A stretch of 64,000 bases of DNA from Phycisphaeraceae bacterium (lineage in GTDB: Bacteria; Planctomycetota; Phycisphaerae; Phycisphaerales; Phycisphaeraceae), in the NCBI GenBank assembly GCA_029260715.1, contig JAJDCS010000013.1, forward strand, positions 62,001 to 126,000, in the 5' to 3' direction. The position numbers were made by a program, and so were the translations under genes. Shown in pieces: positions 16,325 to 34,972 of this stretch. Each line of letters starts with the position of its first letter. Position 1 is the stretch's first letter. The notes under the pieces are model-generated. The model was not told the origin of the DNA and made no database searches. It saw nothing but the letters and a program-made list of their open reading frames with translations.

Positions 16325-18361
16325 TTATCTAATCACCCCGTCGTGGCTGGGTGAGCCTGCCTGGGCCGGCCACCGGCCCGCCTTGACATCCTCCCAGTCC
16401 GGCAGGCAAGCCATAATCTCAGGCAACACATCCGACAAGAACTCGGACGCGCGCTTCGACGCGGCTTGTGGGTCCGACACACCAAATAGGCCAACCTCAA
16501 CCTTACAGTAATAACTGTACCGGTCTCTCAGGTCGAAAGCGCCTACCCGCACGTGCTCGGGTGTGGGCAAGAACTTCCCGTTGGCGACAAAAAAGTAGAC
16601 GACGTTCGCGTGGTACGACGGGCTGTCGGGGTGCGCGAACGTAAAAATAGTAGCGTCAAAGTCCGTCTCGGGGATGCGCACACCCTCCCGGTTGAGTTGG
16701 CTCGGAGCCCACCAATCCGCCCCTTTTTCACGGTAGGACTGCCCGGACAGGTTCAGAGAGGTTTGGCCGATCCCAATCCGGTCGAGCCCACCAGCCACGA
16801 AACAGCGGTCGGGCACGTGCGGGACCGTGTCAGGCGTGCCCGTGTAGTAAGCCACATGCAGACGCACCATCGACTCGGCCCCACGGTCGGCTGCTGAGGT
16901 GTCGCGGTAGACCCGCGACAGATACTGCCTCGTGCCTAAGGCTTCGAGCGCCTCGGCGCTTAGGCTGTCGTCGTCGTGTTCTTTCTCCCATTTACCGATC
17001 CTGTCGGGCAGCGGGAACAGCGGGATCCGCATCGGCACCGGTTGCTTGATCAACACAATGCGCGTGGCCTTGACCACGCCGTTGAGGCCCAACACCGCCG
17101 CGGCGAGCACCCCCGCGGCCACCCCCATCGCCAGGGGCCTGTGAGAGCCGAACGAGGCTGCTCCGGTCGAGCGGGTCTGCCGCCGCACCAGCCAAAACCC
17201 GCCCGCCAGTAGCACAAGACCACCCACAAACAGCCCCGTTGCCGATTGGCTGGTCAGAACACCGCCGAACAGGTCTTCAGGGCGATTGATCGTTAGCAAC
17301 AAGCCGTACTCCAGCCCCGCGATCAGCGTCAGCGCAGCCCCGATCGATATGCCCTTAAGAACAGACAGCCACCCCAACCGCGCCGGCGGGTTGGGCGGTG
17401 GGGTGTCCGCGGGCTCGGCCTTGGGTGGGGCCTCGCGTGATTCTTCGATGACCGCGTTGTCCAAAATCCAACCCACCAACATAAACAACCCTGCCGCGGG
17501 TATCAGCATCACCATACCCACAAAAATGTGGAAATCCCCCGTAGCCATCTCTTTCTTCACAATGGTCAACAGTGCCACCGCCGTGACCCTGCCCACATTG
17601 ACCAGCACCGCGATCGGCACAGCCAGTGCCACCATAATGATACGCTTCCACCAGGCCCGTTCCACCAGGAAGGCCATCGCCGCCCCCAACGCGATAAAGG
17701 CCATGAGCATCCGCAGCCCCGAGCAGGCCTCGGCCACGTTGAGCTTCTCCACCACCCACTGCCCACCCCGCATAAAAGTCAGCTCGATCGTCGAGCCGCG
17801 GACCGACACGTCGAACCACAAGCCTTGCATCACCAGCGTGGACGACTTCGCCGCGATCAATTGCAACTGCCACGCGATCTGCTCCCAGATCCGCTCGGAG
17901 ATCTTCACGCCCAGCGATAGGTACAAAATCGGGAACCACAGCACGCCCATCGCCTTGGGCCCCGTCAAAAACAAAACCAACCCGAAGAGGCTTACGATCA
18001 TGCTGTAGCCCTGGAGCATGTCGTTGCGCACGGGGTAGATGCACCATGCAAAGGCGAATATCCCCATAAACAAGACGACCAGGCCGGGCCAATACACCCG
18101 GTACGGCGTGGCCAGCAGCCGGCCCTTGCTCTGATGGATGAAGTACACGCTGATCAGCGGGACAATCAGCGCATGCGACCAGTCGCCGCCCCATTCGCCC
18201 GTAGCGATCATCCCCATCCGCCACAGAAAGTTGCGGTACAGAACGACGAACAGCGCCGTCAGCACGGCGATCCACGCCCAACCGGTCGGAGAGATCAACG
18301 GGCTGCCGTCCACGTTTGACGGCAGCTGGGCCGCCGGCGAATCTGCTGTGCCCGTCGTCAT
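16325..18361 (-). CDS. Exosortase fused to an EpsI-type C-terminal domain
   Basis: A protein of about 678 residues. The N-terminal 300 residues hold about eight TM helices with the exosortase catalytic set: Cys213 in VAEACSGLRML, Arg258 in VNVGRVTAVAL and His278 in GDFHIFVGM. This matches the transpeptidase-like Cys/Arg/His triad of the EpsH/XrtA superfamily. After further TM segments, residues of about 460-640 form a soluble domain (IPLFPLPDRIGKWEKEHDDD... ending in VEVGLFGVSDP) resembling EpsI/DUF3485, often fused to or encoded beside exosortases. Exosortases cleave C-terminal PEP-CTERM-like sorting tags and link proteins to the cell surface or matrix. ATG 18361 is chosen; GTG 18370 is possible. 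No substrate with a clear sorting tag is visible in the window. Confidence 0.88.
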   Translation of the reverse strand: MTTGTADSPAAQLPSNVDGSPLISPTGWAWIAVLTALFVVLYRNFLWRMGMIATGEWGGDWSHALIVPLISVYFIHQSKGRLLATPYRVYWPGLVVLFMGIFAFAWCIYPVRNDMLQGYSMIVSLFGLVLFLTGPKAMGVLWFPILYLSLGVKISERIWEQIAWQLQLIAAKSSTLVMQGLWFDVSVRGSTIELTFMRGGQWVVEKLNVAEACSGLRMLMAFIALGAAMAFLVERAWWKRIIMVALAVPIAVLVNVGRVTAVALLTIVKKEMATGDFHIFVGMVMLIPAAGLFMLVGWILDNAVIEESREAPPKAEPADTPPPNPPARLGWLSVLKGISIGAALTLIAGLEYGLLLTINRPEDLFGGVLTSQSATGLFVGGLVLLAGGFWLVRRQTRSTGAASFGSHRPLAMGVAAGVLAAAVLGLNGVVKATRIVLIKQPVPMRIPLFPLPDRIGKWEKEHDDDSLSAEALEALGTRQYLSRVYRDTSAADRGAESMVRLHVAYYTGTPDTVPHVPDRCFVAGGLDRIGIGQTSLNLSGQSYREKGADWWAPSQLNREGVRIPETDFDATIFTFAHPDSPSYHANVVYFFVANGKFLPTPEHVRVGAFDLRDRYSYYCKVEVGLFGVSDPQAASKRASEFLSDVLPEIMACLPDWEDVKAGRWPAQAGSPSHDGVIR

Positions 18362-18501
18362 TGGTGCCACACGCTTGTAACTATCGGTGCCAAATCAATG
18401 TCTCACTGCCTGCTACGATCAAACCATCCGCTATTGAAAGGCACCAGTCACGATCGCCCCTCCTAAAGGGCTTTGTAATAGATCGCCTGCCGCCAGAGTC
18501 G

Positions 18502-21243: not shown

Positions 21244-21396
21244 CGACCGCCCCCACTTGATTATCACACGGTTCCCCTGGCGGTTATCGCTTAGCCACGC
21301 TGTTGCCGTGGCGCACCGCCTCGCCGGCTCGCCGTGTTGATTTTCTCCGACACATGTCTTAACCCCGTCGGCGATGGCGTCGATAAAAAGCCGGGG

Positions 21397-22200
21397 ATGT
21401 CGCTTCCAAACAACAACACACCTCGTCCAACTGTTGATCCAGCCGCACACCCCGGCTCCATGCAAGCCGGGCAGCAGATGGCGGCCTCGGCGCGGGTCGT
21501 GCACGAATTGTCGAACCTTCTCGACGGCAGCCTGCGGAATGTGGAGTTGGTGATTTCAAATCTGCAATCAACCGCCCCGCAAGAGGCCGTTGACCCGCCG
21601 CTTCAGGGCTCTGCCGACGATCGCGAGGTTGAACGGCTGTTGGTGGCTAACCAGGCGATGCGGCAGATGGCTTCGTTGCTTCGCCGGTGGATGCACTCTC
21701 ACAGCGACGGTGCGCCCTTGTACGACACCCAGCAGCACCTCGACCAAGCCGTTTTGCTCGCCGCCAGGCTGCTTCGCCCCGCCGCTGCCAAGCTCGGCGT
21801 TGAAATCAGCGTGTCGCTGCCCGACTTCGCCGGGCAACTCCCCGCGGGGCCGGCTTACACGATTGTCTCCAACGCGCTACGCAACAGCATCCAGGCCATC
21901 GCCGACACGCCAAAGTCAAAGCCACACAGCCGCATCGATGTCACTGTCAAGATCGACGCCGGGTTTATTGAGCTGTGCATCCAAGACGAAGGCCCCGGGC
22001 TGGATGCGGCCATCATCGACGAGCAAGGCGAGTTGTGTTTCGGGCAGACCACCAAGCCGCACGGGCACGGCATCGGCTTGGCCATGATCCGTGAGATTGT
22101 TCACGGCATGGGTGGGGCCTTGCACCTAAGCAACCGTTCGCCACGCGGTGCCCGCCTCGTGGTGCGTTACCCATTGAACCAGACTCGGGAGCAACAGTAG
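21397..22200 (+). CDS. Soluble histidine kinase (NtrB-like core)
   Basis: About 267 residues. The H-box reads ARVVHELSNLLDGSLRN, with the phospho-accepting His in HELSN like the HELNN of NtrB kinases. An N-box (AYTIVSNALRNSIQAIAD), G1 (DEGPGLD) and G2 (GHGIGLAMIREIV) complete the HATPase_c domain. There is no membrane segment and only about 35 residues before the H-box, so no sensor domain is present; the signal must come from a partner protein. The start is uncertain: ATG 21397 is used, and GTG 21334 would add 21 residues. It is 59 bp upstream of an NtrC-type regulator, its evident partner. Confidence 0.85.
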   Translation: MSLPNNNTPRPTVDPAAHPGSMQAGQQMAASARVVHELSNLLDGSLRNVELVISNLQSTAPQEAVDPPLQGSADDREVERLLVANQAMRQMASLLRRWMHSHSDGAPLYDTQQHLDQAVLLAARLLRPAAAKLGVEISVSLPDFAGQLPAGPAYTIVSNALRNSIQAIADTPKSKPHSRIDVTVKIDAGFIELCIQDEGPGLDAAIIDEQGELCFGQTTKPHGHGIGLAMIREIVHGMGGALHLSNRSPRGARLVVRYPLNQTREQQ

Positions 22201-22259
22201 CCCGGTGTGCCGGAGTGCGTCGTCAACTAGAGATAAAGACGACCGCGAACAAAGCTGTT

Positions 22260-23711
22260 ATGGCCGACCCTTCACGCATCCTGATTGTTGACGACGACCC
22301 CATCGTGGCCGAGAGCCTCGGTGAGTTCCTGTCCAACGAGGGCTACGCCACCGCCACCGCCTGCGACGGTGTCGAGGCGATGGATGTGCTCAACCACGCC
22401 AAGAGCAACGGCTCAGCCGGCACCGCCGAAGGGTTTTCGCTGGTCGTCACCGATCTGAACATGCCACGGTGCGACGGCATGCAACTGATCCGCGACGTCC
22501 GCAAGACGCACCCGTCGGTGGCGGTGATCGTGGTCACGGGATTCGGCAAGATCGAATCCGCTGTGGAGGCGATCAAACAGGGCGCGGTGGACTACCTGAC
22601 CAAGCCCGTGGTTGACGACGAGTTGCGCATCGCCGTGAACAAAGCGATTCAGCAGCACGTGCTGTTAGCCGAGAACCAATCGCTCAAGAACCAGTTGGCT
22701 GAGCGGTTCGGCATGGGCAACATCATCGGCGCCGACTACCGCATGCAGAAGGTTTACGACCTGATCGAAGCGGTGGCTGAGAGCAAGACGACGGTGTTGA
22801 TCGAGGGCGAAAGCGGCACGGGCAAGTCCATGGTCGCCCACGCCATCCACACGCGTAGCCCCCGGCGCGCCGGGCCGTTCATCACTTTTTCTTGTGGGGC
22901 CATCCCCGAGACACTGCTCGAAAGCGAGCTGTTCGGTCACGTCAAGGGCGCCTTCACCGGCGCCGACCAGGACAAGCCCGGCAAGTGCCTGGCTGCCAAC
23001 GGCGGCACGCTGTTCATCGACGAGATCAACAGCGCCACGCCCATGCTCCAGCTCAAGCTTTTGCGTGTGCTCCAAGAGAAGAAGTTTGAGCCTGTGGGCT
23101 CGCACCAGACCGTCAGCGTGGACGTTCGGTTCGTGTTGGCCACGAACCAGACGCTGGCCCAGTTGGTCAAGGACGGCCAGTTCCGCGAAGACTTGTACTA
23201 CCGGATCAACGTGGTGAACATCAAGCTGCCGCCGCTGCGCGACCGGATCGCCGACATCCCGCTTTTGGTCGAGGCGTTTTTAACCAAATACGCCAAGGAG
23301 ACGGGCAAGGACCGCTCGATCACCGAAGACGCGTTGGTGGCGCTTGGCCGGTCACGCTGGCCCGGGAACGTGCGCGAGTTGGAGAACGCGATCGAGCGAG
23401 CGGTGGTGCTTAGCAAGCGCCCCGTGATCGGCGTCGAAGACCTGCCCGAATCGGTTCGCAGCACCAAAGGCCCGTCAAGCCCCGCGGACAATGACGGTGA
23501 CACCGCGACCAACGCGGCCATCCCCGCGCTGGAGGGCGGGTGGAACCCCACGCCGCTGACTCAAGCCATGGAAACCCCCGAGCGGCTGATCCTTGAAGCC
23601 GCCCTGCAAGCCAACAACTGGAATCGCCAAGAAACCGCCCGCCAACTCGATATCAACCGCACCACGCTCTACAAGAAGATTAAGCACTTCAAGCTCGACG
23701 AGCCGCGGTAG
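22260..23711 (+). CDS. Sigma-54-dependent response regulator, NtrC family
   Basis: A 483-residue regulator in three parts. The receiver domain has the acidic pair VDDDP, phospho-acceptor Asp65 (VTDLNMPRCDGM) and Lys in YLTKPV. The AAA+ domain has Walker A GESGTGKS (183-190), the sigma-54 contact loop GAFTGA (230-235), Walker B GGTLFIDEI and the arginine-finger region RFREDLYYR-like FREDLYYRINV. A Fis-type helix-turn-helix lies at the end (RQETARQLDINRTTLYKKI). The intact GAFTGA loop means it can activate sigma-54 RNA polymerase. Partner kinase is upstream. The PEP-CTERM/exosortase systems of other bacteria use a comparable kinase/regulator pair (PrsK/PrsR), so control of the neighbouring EPS locus is a reasonable inference. 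A consensus sigma-54 promoter occurs at 32.6 kb. Confidence 0.93.
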   Translation: MADPSRILIVDDDPIVAESLGEFLSNEGYATATACDGVEAMDVLNHAKSNGSAGTAEGFSLVVTDLNMPRCDGMQLIRDVRKTHPSVAVIVVTGFGKIESAVEAIKQGAVDYLTKPVVDDELRIAVNKAIQQHVLLAENQSLKNQLAERFGMGNIIGADYRMQKVYDLIEAVAESKTTVLIEGESGTGKSMVAHAIHTRSPRRAGPFITFSCGAIPETLLESELFGHVKGAFTGADQDKPGKCLAANGGTLFIDEINSATPMLQLKLLRVLQEKKFEPVGSHQTVSVDVRFVLATNQTLAQLVKDGQFREDLYYRINVVNIKLPPLRDRIADIPLLVEAFLTKYAKETGKDRSITEDALVALGRSRWPGNVRELENAIERAVVLSKRPVIGVEDLPESVRSTKGPSSPADNDGDTATNAAIPALEGGWNPTPLTQAMETPERLILEAALQANNWNRQETARQLDINRTTLYKKIKHFKLDEPR

Positions 23712-29389: not shown

Positions 29390-31873
29390 ATGTTTTTTTG
29401 GCTCATGCGTTTTGATCAGAGCGTCGCGGCGGCCGGGTCGCTGGGGGCGTGGATCGACCGGCTGTTGGGGCTGCGGCAAATCAGTTGGTCCCAAGAGGGG
29501 GTGGTGTTGGGTTGGCGGCACGCGCTGCCGGCGTGGGTTTGGGTGGCGATCGCCGGCGCGGCGGTGGGCGTATCGGTGTGGAGCTACGGCCGGCAGTGGG
29601 GCCCGGTGCGTGGGCGCATGGCCTTGGCGACGCTGCGGGCGACGCTGATCGTGCTGATCGCGGCGGTGCTGGCTGGCCCGACGCTGGTGCTCAACCGCGA
29701 AGACGTGGAGCCCGATTCCCTGCTGCTGCTGGTGGACCGTAGCGCTTCGATGCGCCTCGAAGACGCGGTGGTAGACAGCGAAGCCGGCCCCCAGCCCGTC
29801 AGCCGGGCGCACGCGGTGCAACACTGGCTGACCCAGCAGGCCGACCTGTTCAGCGCCCAGCGGCTTGGGCGTGACCGCCGGCTGATTTGGATGGGCTTCG
29901 ACGATCAGGCCTACGCGATCGACCCGCCGTACACTCACCCTGATGCGGGCGACCGACCGCGGGGCGACACCACCGCGCTACGCACCGCCATCGACCAAGC
30001 GCTGGACCGCGCCGCGGGGCGGCCGATCAGCGGCGTCGTCTTGTTCACCGACGGGCGCAGCCCCCAGAGCACGGGCGCCGACTTGGTTCGCCGTCTCCAG
30101 CAGCAGGCGGTGAGCGTTTTCCCCGTGCCCATGGGCGCCCAGCGTCCGCAACTGGATTTGAGCCTGGCGCAGGTCGACGCCCCGCAACACGCGTTTGTGA
30201 ACGACACCGTTCCGGTCACGGTCTGGGTTGACCATTACCCCGCCGACGCGGAGGTCGACCCCGCCCACGTGCGCGTGCGCCTGACCGACGCGCAGACCGG
30301 CCAGACGCTCGACGAAGCCACGCCCGGCCCGGAAGGGTTAAGCGAGCCGCTGCGCCTGATCGGTCAGTCCGCCGTTGCCGGGCCGGCCACGTGGCGTGTG
30401 GAACTGGAATACACCCCTCCGGGCGGGTCGCCCGACGGCTTGCTTACACCCAATAAAGAACTGATCACCGAGAACAACCGCAGCCAAGTCAGCGTCGAGC
30501 TGATCGACCGACCGATCCGGGTGTTGTACGTGGAGGGCTACCCGCGATGGGAGTACCGCTACCTCGCGAGTGTGTTGGTGCGTGAGCAGAGCATCAGCAG
30601 CAGTGTGTTGCTCGTCAGCGCCGACCGCCACTTCGTCCAAGAGGGCGACACCCCCATCACGCGCCTGCCCGCCGATGCCAAAGAGCTTGAGCCGTTCGAT
30701 GTGGTCGTCATCGGCGACGTGCCCGCGGATTACATGAGCCTGGATCAGCAGTCGCTGCTGCGCGACCACGTGGCTGTGGGGGGCGCGGGGCTTTTGTGGA
30801 TCGGCGGGGCGTACCACACGCCGTACACCTACACCACCACACCGTTGGGGGAGTTGCTGCCGATGGCCCGCCCCGGGCTCACCGAGTCGCTCGACCCGTC
30901 GATCGGCCCGGTGGACCTGCAGCCCACGCCGTTGGCCGAGGCGATCAACGTGCTGTCGTTTTACGACTCGGAGCAGCCTGAAGACAGCGGCCCGCGCGCC
31001 AAGCCCGGTTGGCCCACCGGCCTGCCGGGGCTGCTGTGGGCGCAGGCCGTCGGGACGCTCAAGCCCACCGCCGAGGTGTTGGCCACCGGCTCTTACCAAA
31101 GCCAGGAGTCGCCCGTGCCGCTGGTCATGCGTATGCGCTACGGCAACGGCCAGGTCGTGTACGTCGCCACGGACGATACCTGGCGGTGGCGGTTCGGCAG
31201 GGGCGACCTTTACTACCAGCAGTTTTGGGTCCAGTTGGTGCGCATGCTGGGGCGCCAGCGTGTCCAAGACACGCCCAACCAAGCGCGACTGCGTGTCTCG
31301 CATCCGCGCGTCGAGCTTGGCCAGGCCGTTGTGGTTGAGTTACACCTAAACGACCCGCTGTTGGCGGACCGCCAGTTGCTGCGCGTGGCGGTCGGCGTTA
31401 CCACGGCTGACGAACACGATCCGACTGGATCAGGCCCGACTCATGTGGAACAGATCGAATTGGTACAGCGGCAGCGACCGGACGCCCCCCTGTCCGATCA
31501 AGACACGCCAAGCAAACAGCTCTACCAGGCGGTTTGGCACCCCCGCCACACCGGCCGGTTGCTGCTGCGCGTCAATGAGCCGGCTTTGAGCCACCTCGAC
31601 ACCACCGCCCCGATCGAGGTCATCCACCCCGCAGACGAATTGCGTCAGCCGCTGCCGGACCACCCACGCTTGGCGGCCCTGGCCCAGCAGACGGGCGGGC
31701 AAGTCGTGGAGCCGGATCAACTCGACAAGTTGGCAACGCTGATCCCCAACCGCGCGCGGCGCACCCCTAACGACATCCGTGAGCCGTTGTGGGACACCCC
31801 CTTAACGCTATTGGCTGTGTTGGTGCTGCTCACCGCCGAGTGGGTGGGGCGGAAAGTGATACGCTTGGTGTAG
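29390..31873 (+). CDS. Large membrane VWA / glutamine-amidotransferase-like protein of the MoxR operon
   Basis: 827 residues. Two N-terminal TM helices (PAWVWVAIAGAAVGVSVW and LRATLIVLIAAVLAGPTLVL) precede a VWA domain with MIDAS LLLVDRSASM. Further on is a class-I glutamine-amidotransferase-like segment (VLYVEGYPRWEYRYLASVL, PFDVVVIGDVPADYM, GGAGLLWIGGAYHTPY). The catalytic Cys is not evident there, so it is probably a binding fold only. A C-terminal TM (LLAVLVLLTAEWVG) closes the protein. This arrangement occurs in planctomycete MoxR operons. It is 14 bp after the BatA gene and is the last gene of the operon. Confidence 0.82.
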   Translation: MFFWLMRFDQSVAAAGSLGAWIDRLLGLRQISWSQEGVVLGWRHALPAWVWVAIAGAAVGVSVWSYGRQWGPVRGRMALATLRATLIVLIAAVLAGPTLVLNREDVEPDSLLLLVDRSASMRLEDAVVDSEAGPQPVSRAHAVQHWLTQQADLFSAQRLGRDRRLIWMGFDDQAYAIDPPYTHPDAGDRPRGDTTALRTAIDQALDRAAGRPISGVVLFTDGRSPQSTGADLVRRLQQQAVSVFPVPMGAQRPQLDLSLAQVDAPQHAFVNDTVPVTVWVDHYPADAEVDPAHVRVRLTDAQTGQTLDEATPGPEGLSEPLRLIGQSAVAGPATWRVELEYTPPGGSPDGLLTPNKELITENNRSQVSVELIDRPIRVLYVEGYPRWEYRYLASVLVREQSISSSVLLVSADRHFVQEGDTPITRLPADAKELEPFDVVVIGDVPADYMSLDQQSLLRDHVAVGGAGLLWIGGAYHTPYTYTTTPLGELLPMARPGLTESLDPSIGPVDLQPTPLAEAINVLSFYDSEQPEDSGPRAKPGWPTGLPGLLWAQAVGTLKPTAEVLATGSYQSQESPVPLVMRMRYGNGQVVYVATDDTWRWRFGRGDLYYQQFWVQLVRMLGRQRVQDTPNQARLRVSHPRVELGQAVVVELHLNDPLLADRQLLRVAVGVTTADEHDPTGSGPTHVEQIELVQRQRPDAPLSDQDTPSKQLYQAVWHPRHTGRLLLRVNEPALSHLDTTAPIEVIHPADELRQPLPDHPRLAALAQQTGGQVVEPDQLDKLATLIPNRARRTPNDIREPLWDTPLTLLAVLVLLTAEWVGRKVIRLV

Positions 31874-31882
31874 GCGGTCCGC

Positions 31883-32296
31883 TCATTCCGACGGGTGGAC
31901 TTCCAGACGCCAGTCGGCTGCGGACTCATCCGGCGCGGTGGCGCTTAGTAGCCGCTCGATGTTCGACGGCATGTACATGTACCGCCAGCCCATGGCCGGT
32001 TCCACCGCCAGGCCGGCGTCGTTAACAAACTCAAACCGGTACTGGACCGTCAAGTCATACGGCGTGGTCGCGCGGATGGGCACTTCGACGCGTAGCGGTT
32101 CTTGCTCGCCGCCCTCCACGCGCGGCGATCCGACTTTGGTTTGGTCTTCGAGCCCGTCCAACGCGGCGATGCGTTCGTTGCCCGAGTCCGGGCGTGAGGC
32201 CGGCTGCCCGGTGGGCTGGGCCGCTTCGCAGCCAATCATCAACGAAGCCATCACACAGGTCGTGGCCAGGGACAGCATATGAATCGGTCGGGGCAT
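31883..32296 (-). CDS. Small lipoprotein, DUF1425 (YcfL-like)
   Basis: 137 residues from ATG 32296, preceded by CGAGGAGACC (good Shine-Dalgarno). Signal SLATTCVMASLMIGC with lipobox MIGC, then a short Pro/Gly/Ser-rich linker. A compact beta domain (TPYDLTVQYRFEFVNDAGL ... GWRYMYMPSNIERLLSATAP) resembles DUF1425/YcfL. YcfL-type lipoproteins are outer-membrane-associated, with no established function. It converges with the MoxR operon, 9 bp from its stop. Confidence 0.7.
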   Translation of the reverse strand: MPRPIHMLSLATTCVMASLMIGCEAAQPTGQPASRPDSGNERIAALDGLEDQTKVGSPRVEGGEQEPLRVEVPIRATTPYDLTVQYRFEFVNDAGLAVEPAMGWRYMYMPSNIERLLSATAPDESAADWRLEVHPSE

Positions 32297-32491
32297 GGCC
32301 GGTCTCCTCGTACTACGGTGTACCCATACTTCAGCAAAAATCATCGGTTACGGACCCCCGGGCTTTCAGCGAGATAGGTGACTCGGCTGCGATCCCACCT
32401 GTCTGTTGTCGTCATTTTGGGTATAAACTGACTAATCGTTTCTTGGTCCAAGGCTTAACAGACGGGGCGGGGTGGTATTTCTGCCACCGTT

Positions 32492-32513
32492 CATGTTGCT
32501 TCTAGGCAACATG
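32492..32513. promoter_or_regulatory. Perfect palindrome, candidate upstream activator site
   Basis: CATGTTGC and its exact complement GCAACATG are separated by six bases. The centre lies about 130 bp before the transcription start predicted from the sigma-54 element at 32607, a usual distance for an NtrC-type enhancer. A weaker GGTGG/CCACC hairpin sits just upstream (32471-32488). Confidence 0.45.
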
Positions 32514-32606
32514 GTTCATGAGGCCGCGGCGGGTTTCCTTCGGTATATATCGCCCAAGGCGTTGTAAAAAAAGCATTTAAAGTGCGCGATCCTTGTTCCG
32601 TCGCGA

Positions 32607-32622
32607 TGGCACCCTGGTTGCT
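32607..32622 (+). promoter_or_regulatory. Consensus sigma-54 promoter (-24/-12)
   Basis: TGGCAC, five bases, TTGCT matches the sigma-54 consensus at every conserved position. Transcription should start near 32633, giving a leader of about 130 bases with a GCGGGC/GCCCGC hairpin (32650-32672) before the gene at 32764. Caution: the first 13 bases also occur inside the MITE at 23.9 kb, where the -12 element is broken. Confidence 0.6.
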
Positions 32623-32763
32623 TAATTCCCAGTGTCGCTCGGAAGAGCCGCGGGCAGACTCAAGCCGCCCGCAAACCAGCTTGCCTCTTGTGAAAAGAGA
32701 ACTACCCGGCAACTGGAAGCCATCGATGAAACGCCGCCCGGAGAGGAAAAAAGGAGCTTAACG

Positions 32764-33354
32764 ATGACGAAAGCCGCCGCCGTATTCGCCGCTTGCTCGA
32801 TGCTGATTGGTGCGACGACTTCCGCTGCACTGGCGGATAGTTATGACGAGGGTCACACAGTGGACAAGACCAAGGTTCACCGGGTGTATTCGCCTGTCAA
32901 GCGGCGTGTGTGGGTGGTGAACCGTCACGTGGGCGCTCCCGGCCCGATCGTCAGCCGCCCCGCCGGCATGCACACGAACCACGACCAGCGCGTCCCTGTT
33001 TTAGTGGTCAACACCCCGATCTACATCGACCCCAACGCCGATTACAAGCGGCAGGGCGAGTACCCGATCGACGACAACCACCACCTGCTGGTGGCCCAGC
33101 GCCTGTACCGCAGCCTCAACGCCAAGCCCGCGAGGACCATCCGGAAAAGCGGCGTGTCCGTCACCGACACCAGCCGCACGCGTCAGGCGATCCGTCCCCA
33201 TATGATCCTCATGAAGCCCCAGCCCATGCGCAACAGCAACACGCCTTCATTAAAGCCTAATCTCAAGCGGATTCAGATCCCCCACGTGCCCCGGCCCCCG
33301 TCGAAGAAGCCCCGGCTTCTGCTGGTTCAGACCGACGCGGAACCGCTCGGGTAA
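32764..33354 (+). CDS. Secreted hypothetical protein behind a sigma-54 promoter
   Basis: A 196-residue basic protein starting at ATG 32764, with AAGGAG 8 bp upstream. Its signal peptide is TKAAAVFAACSMLIGATT ending at ALA before DSYDEGH. The mature part is rich in Arg, Pro and His, with VHRVYSPVKRRVWVVNRHV and a C-terminal Pro/Lys/Arg region. I see no known domain, no lipobox and no PEP-CTERM-like tag. The frame is open further upstream to 32632, but the strong ribosome-binding site and signal peptide fix this start. The consensus sigma-54 promoter and palindrome upstream suggest regulated expression, possibly by the activator at 22.3 kb. Confidence 0.7.
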   Translation: MTKAAAVFAACSMLIGATTSAALADSYDEGHTVDKTKVHRVYSPVKRRVWVVNRHVGAPGPIVSRPAGMHTNHDQRVPVLVVNTPIYIDPNADYKRQGEYPIDDNHHLLVAQRLYRSLNAKPARTIRKSGVSVTDTSRTRQAIRPHMILMKPQPMRNSNTPSLKPNLKRIQIPHVPRPPSKKPRLLLVQTDAEPLG

Positions 33355-33378
33355 ACACCGCCGATCACAACGAGTCTG

Positions 33379-33978
33379 CTACTGGCCCGCCGCCGCCTCG
33401 GGTTGAGGCGTGGCAGCGGCTTGGGGCTCGGTGCTGACCACCGAGCGGATCAGGTGCGCGAAGCCCTCTTGGCCTTTGGAGATGTCGTGGGCGTACATGG
33501 TGGGCAAAGCCCGCTGGTCGAAGCCCATGACAATGGCGTGGCCTTTCTCGACGGGGCCCTGGGCGGGGATCAGCACGCCGTCTTTGTTGCGGATCACGAT
33601 GACCCCGCCGGTGCGGGGGTTGGCTGCCAACTCGATGAAGATGTGATGGTCTTTCAGGTCGGTTCCGACGGGGTCGCTGACCAGCAGCACGTTTTTGCCG
33701 ATGAGCGACTGGGCTTTGAGGTTCCCCGCGGTGATCGTGTGCGACGCCTGGATGGAGCCCTTGCTGATCCGGCACAAGACGCCCTGGGTATCGTCTTGGG
33801 ACAGCACCTCGTCAGCCACGACCTGCTTGGCGGTGATCCGGTCGGCGGTGATCGACTTGACGGACAACTCATCGGGCATGGCCCCGCCCGCCCCCGCGTA
33901 GATCGCCCCGCCCGCTCCCACGAGCCCGCCTATCAACGCTGAAACAAACGCTACAACCGCTGCGGAGGGTGATTTCAT
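33379..33978 (-). CDS. Membrane-anchored hypothetical protein
   Basis: 199 residues. One N-terminal glycine-rich membrane segment (AAVVAFVSALIGGLVGAGGA) is followed by a region of short repeats of the form V-K-S-I-T-A-D-R-I-T-A-K-x-V-V-A-D-E-V. This resembles trimeric coiled or beta-helical stalk segments such as phage-type tail-fibre repeats. A small beta domain (HHIFIELAANPRTGGVIVIRN) follows, then an Ala/Pro-rich tail. No family recognised. It converges with the gene at 32764 and is separated by 24 bp. Confidence 0.6.
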   Translation of the reverse strand: MKSPSAAVVAFVSALIGGLVGAGGAIYAGAGGAMPDELSVKSITADRITAKQVVADEVLSQDDTQGVLCRISKGSIQASHTITAGNLKAQSLIGKNVLLVSDPVGTDLKDHHIFIELAANPRTGGVIVIRNKDGVLIPAQGPVEKGHAIVMGFDQRALPTMYAHDISKGQEGFAHLIRSVVSTEPQAAATPQPEAAAGQ

Positions 33979-34143
33979 CGATTCGGCTCCAGTAGGTGCG
34001 TATAAATAATTGGCACGTCATTTACGGGGCGATCGTACTGCGTTCGTTCATGCCGCTCAACCGGTAAGCGGCGGGTTGGCCCGTATAAAAGGCGCGAGAG
34101 GGGGTTTAGGCTTCGCGGAAGTGGTATAGACGGCACAGCGTAC

Positions 34144-34168
34144 TATAATCAAATGCTGGCCCTATAAT
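34144..34168 (+). promoter_or_regulatory. Two TATAAT boxes upstream of the gene at 34220
   Basis: Exact TATAAT hexamers at 34144-34149 and 34163-34168; the second lies in a GGCCC/GGGCC inverted repeat. No strong -35 element pairs with either, so the promoter call is tentative. Confidence 0.35.
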
Positions 34169-34219
34169 AGGGGGCCACGAAGCGGTTATTGGGTGCGACT
34201 ACTCGAAGAAGGGTGAAGC

Positions 34220-34972
34220 ATGGCGACGAGTTTTGGGGCATTGTGCAACGACTTCTACGTCAACCAGAAGCTGGCGCTGAAGATGGACCTGCCCAGCGAC
34301 CGTGAGACGGTGCTGCACCTGTTCGACCGGGTGCGCAAGACGCACTCGACGATGACGCGGTTCCGGCGTTACGACGAAGAGCTGGCGTTGGAATCGTCGC
34401 GGCAGGACGGCGACTACGAGTGGCTGGCGCTGCGGCGGACGAGCCTGCGTACCGGTCACGTGAACCCGCCTTCCATGGAGCAGGCGTACAGCCTGCACAA
34501 GCTGCTATTGGAAATCGCGCCTTACCATTTAACGATCAGCCCGCTGGACGTGGATTATCTTGAGTTGTTGTTCGGCTTCGACCTCGAATGCATGGCCAAC
34601 CACGATGAGGTGATCTACGACGCTCTCTTGGGCCATTCGCCCGTGGCCGATCTGCTGCACGTGCCTCAGGCGAAGATCACGGAGGTCCAGCCGGTGTTCG
34701 GGTTGTCGCTAAGTGAGGCGGGCGACCTGCAGGCAACGTTCGAGGTCAAGACGCGCACGAAGACTCGCCGGGGCCGCGCCAGTCGACGCTACCGCGAGGA
34801 GCCGATCAGCTTATTTTTGACGCTTCGCAAGTACGGGCCGATCGATCAGATCGAAGACTTGGCGGGTATTTTCGACCGCCTTGCGCACTGGGCTGAAACA
34901 CTGGCGGTGGAGAAGCTGGTGCCGAATTTGCTCACACCGATCGCTCGGCAGATTACTTCCAGCAACGCGTAA
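34220..34972 (+). CDS. Conserved-looking hypothetical protein, 250 residues
   Basis: Starts at ATG 34220 with GAAGGGTGAAGC upstream. Soluble and rich in charged residues, with no signal peptide or TM segment. The order is an N-terminal alpha/beta region (TSFGALCNDFYVNQKLALKM), a middle HLTISPLDVDYLELLFGFD, and a basic linker KTRTKTRRGRASRRYREE. A C-terminal helix bundle follows. I recognise no family. The many Arg and Asp/Glu residues and lack of low complexity suggest a real folded protein. Neighbours give no hint of function. Confidence 0.65.
   Translation: MATSFGALCNDFYVNQKLALKMDLPSDRETVLHLFDRVRKTHSTMTRFRRYDEELALESSRQDGDYEWLALRRTSLRTGHVNPPSMEQAYSLHKLLLEIAPYHLTISPLDVDYLELLFGFDLECMANHDEVIYDALLGHSPVADLLHVPQAKITEVQPVFGLSLSEAGDLQATFEVKTRTKTRRGRASRRYREEPISLFLTLRKYGPIDQIEDLAGIFDRLAHWAETLAVEKLVPNLLTPIARQITSSNA

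Follow-up and report, generated by a model that had tools for sequence, protein, structure and literature searches.

The secreted-protein gene and its upstream region

The window, by which we mean the whole 64,000-nucleotide stretch analysed here (C5:62001-126000), comes from a genome of 3.32 Mb in 44 contigs. At 32764..33354 on the forward strand it carries a gene, termed here the target gene, which homology searching assigns to an undescribed family and which encodes a protein of 196 amino acids. An initial annotation, made from the sequence alone, had called the product a secreted protein of no recognised type, and this description holds, with a Sec signal peptide apparent by eye and no match in Pfam or NCBIfam. 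The product also has no match to the C-terminal PEP-CTERM signal models TIGR02595 and PF07589, and structure prediction from a five-sequence alignment gave a mean pLDDT of 43 and no confident fold. A DUF1425 relative lies beside the target gene at 31883-32344; a relative is likewise found beside the target in genome G032 (loci L029/L210), and in no other relative's locus tested (loci of ~1.5 kb to a few kb).

Sigma-54 promoters are recognised by GG at -24 and GC at -12, with 10 bp between them, in the context TGGCAY-N5-TTGC. The element TGGCACCCTGGTTGCT, located by motif scan at 32607..32622 on the forward strand, fits this description exactly, at the very position where the initial annotation had placed a consensus promoter. 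Such a promoter should also have its sigma factor and activators at hand, and the source genome encodes RpoN and four sigma-54 activators. Counting from the -12 GC at 32620-32621, transcription would start at 32633 and give a 131-nt leader (32633..32763, forward strand), within which we read a ribosome site, AAGGAG, at 32751-32756. No sigma-70-like promoter was seen in 32346-32800, and no Rfam family reached its gathering score in 31800-34300.

Upstream of the promoter, at 32492..32513, lies the predicted activator site CATGTTGCTTCTAGGCAACATG, a perfect inverted repeat of the form CATGTTGC-N6-GCAACATG that belongs to the TGT-N12-ACA type. Its centre, 32502.5, falls at about -130 from the predicted start at ~32633, which bears out the spacing claimed for it in the initial annotation and agrees with what is expected of an upstream activator sequence, which is an inverted repeat that is conserved and lies some 80-200 bp before its promoter. 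Between the two elements is an A+T-rich stretch (32547..32586) that is likely to be a region of bending. Directly before the palindrome, at 32471-32488, there is a terminator-like hairpin, GGTGGTATTTCTGCCACC, of a kind expected 0.7 times by chance in the stretch.

The genome has three exact matches to TGGCAC-N5-TTGCW against one for the reversed control, and of the two outside this locus one looks coding by eye and the other intergenic, so that taken by itself the -24/-12 motif is unremarkable. The exact palindrome occurs at this one locus, the next best copies carrying two mismatches, while copies with up to three mismatches (23 per strand) are no commoner than those of the reversed control (25), so that the evidence for the palindrome consists of its perfect copy and its conservation. 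The combination of promoter motif and palindrome is unusual, and it is conservation that decides the matter.

Conservation of the promoter and the palindrome

A search with one query found homologues of the target gene product in 24 of 100 relatives, that is, in 25 of 101 genomes with our own included. Two more family members, in G035 and G043 (scoring 164 and 108 bits against the family profile), were recovered through the joint-pattern search described below, and the family set used here comprises 27 loci, the window gene among them. Scanning the 520 bp before the homology match (for locus L088, before the default point) and allowing one mismatch, we found the sigma-54 motif in 25 of the 27 members, compared with 3.5% of Markov shuffles; it occurs with zero mismatches in 20 of the 27, compared with 0.15% of shuffles. 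As a real-sequence control we used the regions before the genes for two of the genome's sigma-54 activators, A and D (see below), where the motif was present in 1/26 and 1/28 cases respectively, or 2/54 together, after loci with truncated flanks (4/30 for A and 2/30 for D) had been left out. The two exceptions in the family are G022, in which no sigma-54 promoter precedes the family gene, and G025, whose locus is truncated where a contig begins: the family member there (L032) lies near that end with no promoter in reach, and a module of palindrome and promoter lies near the end of another G025 contig (L092).

The palindrome was sought with a matrix seeded by the window palindrome and iterated, each sequence being left out of its own matrix and compared with 100 shuffles. 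A TGTTGC-N6-GCAACA-like palindrome is present at p ≤0.02 in 23 of the 25 promoters, with p 0.059 in the remaining two, G031 and G032; the core common to the promoters is TGTTG-N8-CAACA. Loss of the motif from close relatives that keep the gene had been named in the initial annotation as grounds for abandoning the regulatory reading, and these two sets of counts do not refute it on those grounds. The spacing is conserved as well. Although 300 bp were open to the search, the best site lies 114-118 bp before the promoter in 16 of 25 cases, and the window palindrome (leave-one-out p 0.01) sits at the modal offset, 115. In G004 and G010 the highest score falls at 139-140, and visual inspection shows a weaker candidate at the usual distance. 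Twelve offsets outside the main group, three of which belong to non-family targets found with a bounded gap, cluster roughly on helical turns of 10.5 bp (Rayleigh p 0.019, uncorrected for the eight periods tried).

The A+T-rich stretch is also a general property of these promoters: averaged over all 25, the 10-nt bins between -60 and -21 relative to the motif have an A+T content of 0.56-0.69, compared with ~0.4 further upstream. We considered IHF as the bending protein, but its consensus, at up to two mismatches, is found in 21/25 promoters against 52% of base shuffles, and since this is too weak a difference we do not name it. From these results we regard it as close to certain that the target gene is preceded by a genuine sigma-54 promoter and its enhancer.

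Further genes preceded by the module

Searching the 101 genomes for the palindrome and the promoter as a joint pattern gave 29 matches in 28 genomes, and 4 for the reversed control. Twelve of these matches precede family genes that had served to define the pattern. The rest include the one G025 module, two genes for VanZ-like membrane proteins and four possible targets (in G033, G059, G066 and G024); the other ten, several of which lie in coding sequence by eye, are taken as chance. The product of the G066 target shows insignificant likeness to the secreted family, with a domain score of 5.4 bits. In G024 (contig C71, locus L093) a consensus sigma-54 promoter stands before the gene for a stand-alone sigma-54 activator, a possible cascade.

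A genome-wide search for the palindrome with the sigma-54 motif, the check proposed in the initial annotation, thus uncovers a second site in the source genome (G000; L109, C21:83181-83297), before one of the two VanZ-like genes; the other is in G047 (C108, L096). The profile score of the former, 28.0 bits, is just under the cut-off of 30.1, and that of the latter is 42.0. Two activator sites precede the G047 gene, one with an offset of 98 and the other with one of 128. A near-match of the module is present in the source genome at C39:51131 (L016:1501-1770), with an offset of 116 and TTGA at -12; downstream of it are a reading frame of 31 aa and then, by eye, a hairpin resembling a terminator. 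A candidate double site on contig C42 of the source genome was dropped, as it looks coding by eye.

We also took the matches listed in a named genome collection, which amount to at least 119 stretches, 30 of those listed being planctomycete by title; an enrichment among listed matches is only indicative, and several of the 30 are in open frames. The 30 planctomycete stretches comprise four with members of the secreted family, the G025 module, seven from Phycisphaerae Bin_76R, one from STB_87, and 17 with other targets or none visible. Bin_76R has at least eight module sites (L219, L228, L248, L262, L277, L287 and L305), five with complete ORFs, two with ORFs that run beyond the fetched DNA and one with no clear ORF. 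The complete ORFs behind the module number six, five in Bin_76R and one in STB_87, and every one passes both the NCBIfam and the Pfam PEP-CTERM cut-offs. In some of the Bin_76R and STB_87 cases the module overlaps an open frame. The largest of these frames belongs to a divergent DNA polymerase III gene, whose first domain starts beyond the module, and the three others are without a Pfam match. We consider it likely that some relatives share a PEP-CTERM regulon of this kind.

The exosortase locus and the comparison with PrsK/PrsR

The window contains, as context, an exosortase gene with an EpsI-like (DUF3485) C-terminal part (16325..18370, reverse strand), in a cluster that also encodes a PrsT-like TPR protein (308.9 bits, cut-off 312.2), a tyrosine kinase and an export protein. 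It had been suggested that a regulatory link between the promoter and this cluster would resemble the control of PEP-CTERM genes by PrsK/PrsR. As far as the neighbourhood is concerned, the link is not conserved: genes of the window's exosortase cluster lie near orthologues of activator A in none of 20 relatives' loci (7.6-20 kb, up to 10 kb on each side, E 1e-8). Nor do the window's regulators belong to the Prs families. Activator A scores 366.9 bits against the PrsR model TIGR02915, with a cut-off of 502.6, and the kinase encoded beside it scores 31.7 bits against the PrsK model TIGR02916, with a cut-off of 300.

PrsR motif 1 is a 17-nt sequence ending in TTTACA, with a mean spacer of 62.8 nt, and the PEP-CTERM box motif was found only in Proteobacteria (Haft 2006, PMC1569441). 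By eye, and judged against that published description, a PrsR box ending in TTTACA ~63 nt before the promoter is absent from the window site, which in its place has TGTTGC-N6-GCAACA and a spacer of ~93 nt. What the two systems have in common is a sigma-54 activator of the response-regulator type, an activator site upstream of a -24/-12 promoter, and targets that are secreted-protein or PEP-CTERM genes with long upstream regions. The comparison therefore survives in part. It is apt in function, because the same module precedes PEP-CTERM genes in Bin_76R and STB_87, and these targets support a functional kinship with PrsR control that the gene neighbourhood does not; it fails as a matter of family membership, and the product of the window's own target gene is not a PEP-CTERM protein.

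Candidate activators

The source genome encodes four true sigma-54 activators, which we call A to D, and the window holds one of them. Activator A (22215..23711, forward strand; likely start ATG 22260) comprises a receiver, a sigma-54 AAA+ domain with the GAFTGA loop and a Fis-type helix-turn-helix. Its likely partner is the histidine kinase encoded beside it (21334..22200, forward strand; HATPase domain), a relative of which adjoins A in 14 of 20 loci. Activators B and C are receiver-bearing by sequence. Activator D (C43:1985-3577 of the source genome) is NifA-like, with GAF, AAA+ and helix-turn-helix domains, and scores 484 bits against the NifA model TIGR01817, below the cut-off of 528.85. 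In two genomes an SPP1-portal-like gene lies divergently beside D, namely on C43 of the source genome (L200:258-1742) and in G014 (L202:4366-5925).

The initial annotation had pointed to A as the only activator in the window, with an intact GAFTGA loop. This is correct, but it does not identify the regulator, given that the genome encodes four. The candidate itself survives on other evidence, being present in all 20 genomes with the target gene among the 37 compared and having the best-matching recognition helix of the source genome's own four. Among 37 genomes (G000-G036), A was found in 20/20 with the target gene and 12/17 without it (Fisher p 0.014, with kinship not corrected; ~0.036 by hand if G013 counts), and D in 16/20 with the gene and 17/17 without. 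For these counts A was taken as present despite a partial match in G009, G010, G014, G023 and G028, and as absent in G013, where the best match is 46% identical over its full length and may be a divergent A.

Recognition helices were ranked by their likeness to those of 12 presumed binders, activators encoded within ~1.5 kb of a TGTTG-N8-CAACA module in other phyla. These remained from 24 activator genes seen in the 119 listed loci, after ten that were distant or unreadable and two near-duplicates had been left out. It is important to note that the set rests on gene adjacency, and that the distance cut was chosen after the list had been viewed. From 84 planctomycete activators fetched, 73 helices were parsed. 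The ten readable A orthologues occupy ranks 1-10 of the 73, the A helix, INRTTLYKK, scoring 22.3; ranks 11-13 are other activators of G103 and G104 at 22.1, only 0.2 behind. The source genome's D (INRNTLNKK) scores 18.6, D appearing from rank 18, and its B scores 18.0, with B at ranks 27-35. C falls far below through a mis-parse, and by eye its helix differs. INRTTLYKK is kept in 34 of the 37 A loci read (38 were given).

Some genomes are less informative or less tidy. A is kept but the site is weak in G004, G010 and G032. The PEP-CTERM genomes G101 and G102 do not separate A from D, because both hold A and D. Linkage between activator and target was rejected as evidence, since it is not conserved in the relatives checked, and regulator and target are on different contigs in G032, G027, G004 and G007. 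Autoregulation of A was also rejected, there being no palindrome (≤3 mismatches) or promoter motif (≤1) near its gene in the source genome.

A proposed mechanism and its alternatives

Our preferred explanation, which we hold with moderate confidence, is that an A-type regulator and its kinase drive an enhancer-type sigma-54 promoter of the target gene. Sigma-54 RNA polymerase would sit as a closed complex on TGGCAC-N5-TTGC, and a phosphorylated NtrC-type response regulator, most likely the product of 22215-23711 acting with the kinase of 21334-22200, would bind the TGTTGC-N6-GCAACA palindrome ~130 bp upstream. The A+T-rich stretch between site and promoter may aid DNA looping, and ATP hydrolysis would then open the promoter, so that the secreted protein is made under one specific signal. 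The module would define a small regulon made up of the secreted family, the VanZ-like protein and, in some other Phycisphaerae, PEP-CTERM proteins.

That both motifs are chance matches, the gene being read from an ordinary promoter, is scarcely credible: the frequency of the -24/-12 motif in the genome, with one match within a coding region by eye, would allow it, but both elements and their spacing are conserved across 25 divergent homologues, against 2/54 in the real-sequence control. The more serious question is which protein occupies the site. The same promoter could be served by D, with a small molecule rather than a kinase as the trigger. Among the 101 genomes D (E ≤1e-115) is confined to families f1 and f6 (55 genomes), the two in which the target was found; NifA and FhlA use sites of the TGT-N10-12-ACA class (PMC6615313); and three of the four lowest site scores belong to genomes that lack D (G004, G010 and G032). 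Taken alone, these weak sites would favour D, but the gene-presence profile, G066 and the recognition helices outweigh them. D is missing from 4/20 genomes with the gene, of which one is only 66% complete, it occurs in all 17 without the gene, and its helix scores below that of A. G066 has a perfect palindrome and a promoter with one mismatch, but its D matches are only partial and at most 49% identical, though a single pattern match such as this may be chance. On balance we think it unlikely, if still worth serious attention, that D is the activator.

Control by B or C, or by different activators in different lineages, strikes us as rather improbable. Orthologues of B and C occur in most of the eight relatives sampled, and the weak sites in some genomes hint at turnover. 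Against this, a search of G004 (88% complete) did not yield B, and the four activators read from G047 (78% complete), a fifth and fragmentary one being set aside, do not include C. The helix of B scores lower than that of A, and the helix of C is visibly different.

More broadly, we tentatively propose that the Planctomycetota may possess a PEP-CTERM and surface-protein regulon of their own, in which a kinase-regulator pair distinct from PrsK/PrsR acts through a TGTTGC-N6-GCAACA box and serves the secreted family and the VanZ-like protein in Phycisphaeraceae, and several exosortase substrates in relatives such as Bin_76R. For the control of planctomycete surface proteins, the results supply a defined box and promoter, a set of targets and a candidate two-component system, and they take the regulation of exosortase substrates beyond the PrsR box known from Proteobacteria. 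They also place a gene family whose function is unknown in a regulatory setting that can be tested. With the module conserved in many Phycisphaeraceae and also preceding PEP-CTERM genes in two other Phycisphaerae, a surface-protein regulon that is so far unstudied becomes open to experiment.

Relation to other sigma-54 systems

In the open-access literature, judged by titles and the openings of abstracts (subscription literature being outside this scope), we found no paper on this module. The main text of a broad sigma-54 survey mentions Phycisphaerae once and PEP-CTERM never (PMC12316311), and the main text of a Desulfovibrio sigma-54 regulome paper contains neither the half-site string nor PEP-CTERM (PMC4641369). 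The nearest counterparts of the palindrome are the TGT-N10-12-ACA sites of clostridial, NifA and FhlA type, which, as given in Nie 2019 (PMC6615313), lie mostly 100-250 bp upstream of sigma-54 promoters. The window site shares with these the inverted TGT/ACA repeat, the 12-bp spacer and the position upstream of a sigma-54 promoter; it differs in phylum and in targets, and whereas the activators there are mostly near their targets, in the relatives checked here they are not. As regards the targets, one report describes DAP-chip binding of DVUA0057, a Desulfovibrio vulgaris response regulator, to PEP-CTERM gene promoters (PMC3333781); that system differs in having been mapped experimentally and in belonging to an exopolysaccharide-related plasmid operon. 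An RpoN-dependent PEP-CTERM gene is described in Aquincola (PMC9850573).

Similar sites occur elsewhere among the matches in the genome collection. A gammaproteobacterial PEP-CTERM gene (L263:2364-3165) has a TGTTGC-type palindrome and a sigma-54 motif at an offset of 99, and in two planctomycete genomes (L222 and L250) the module stands before genes for small proteins that by eye are Flp-pilin-like. A WOR-3 bacterium has two sites (L242 and L282) of nearly identical sequence and spacing, 122 and 123. In a further set of loci, mostly from Firmicutes (L216, L223, L238, L240, L244, L261, L281, L294, L300, L301, L304, L309 and L311), sites of this type are found close to a sigma-54 activator gene, and in many cases they precede what by eye are catabolic or transport genes.
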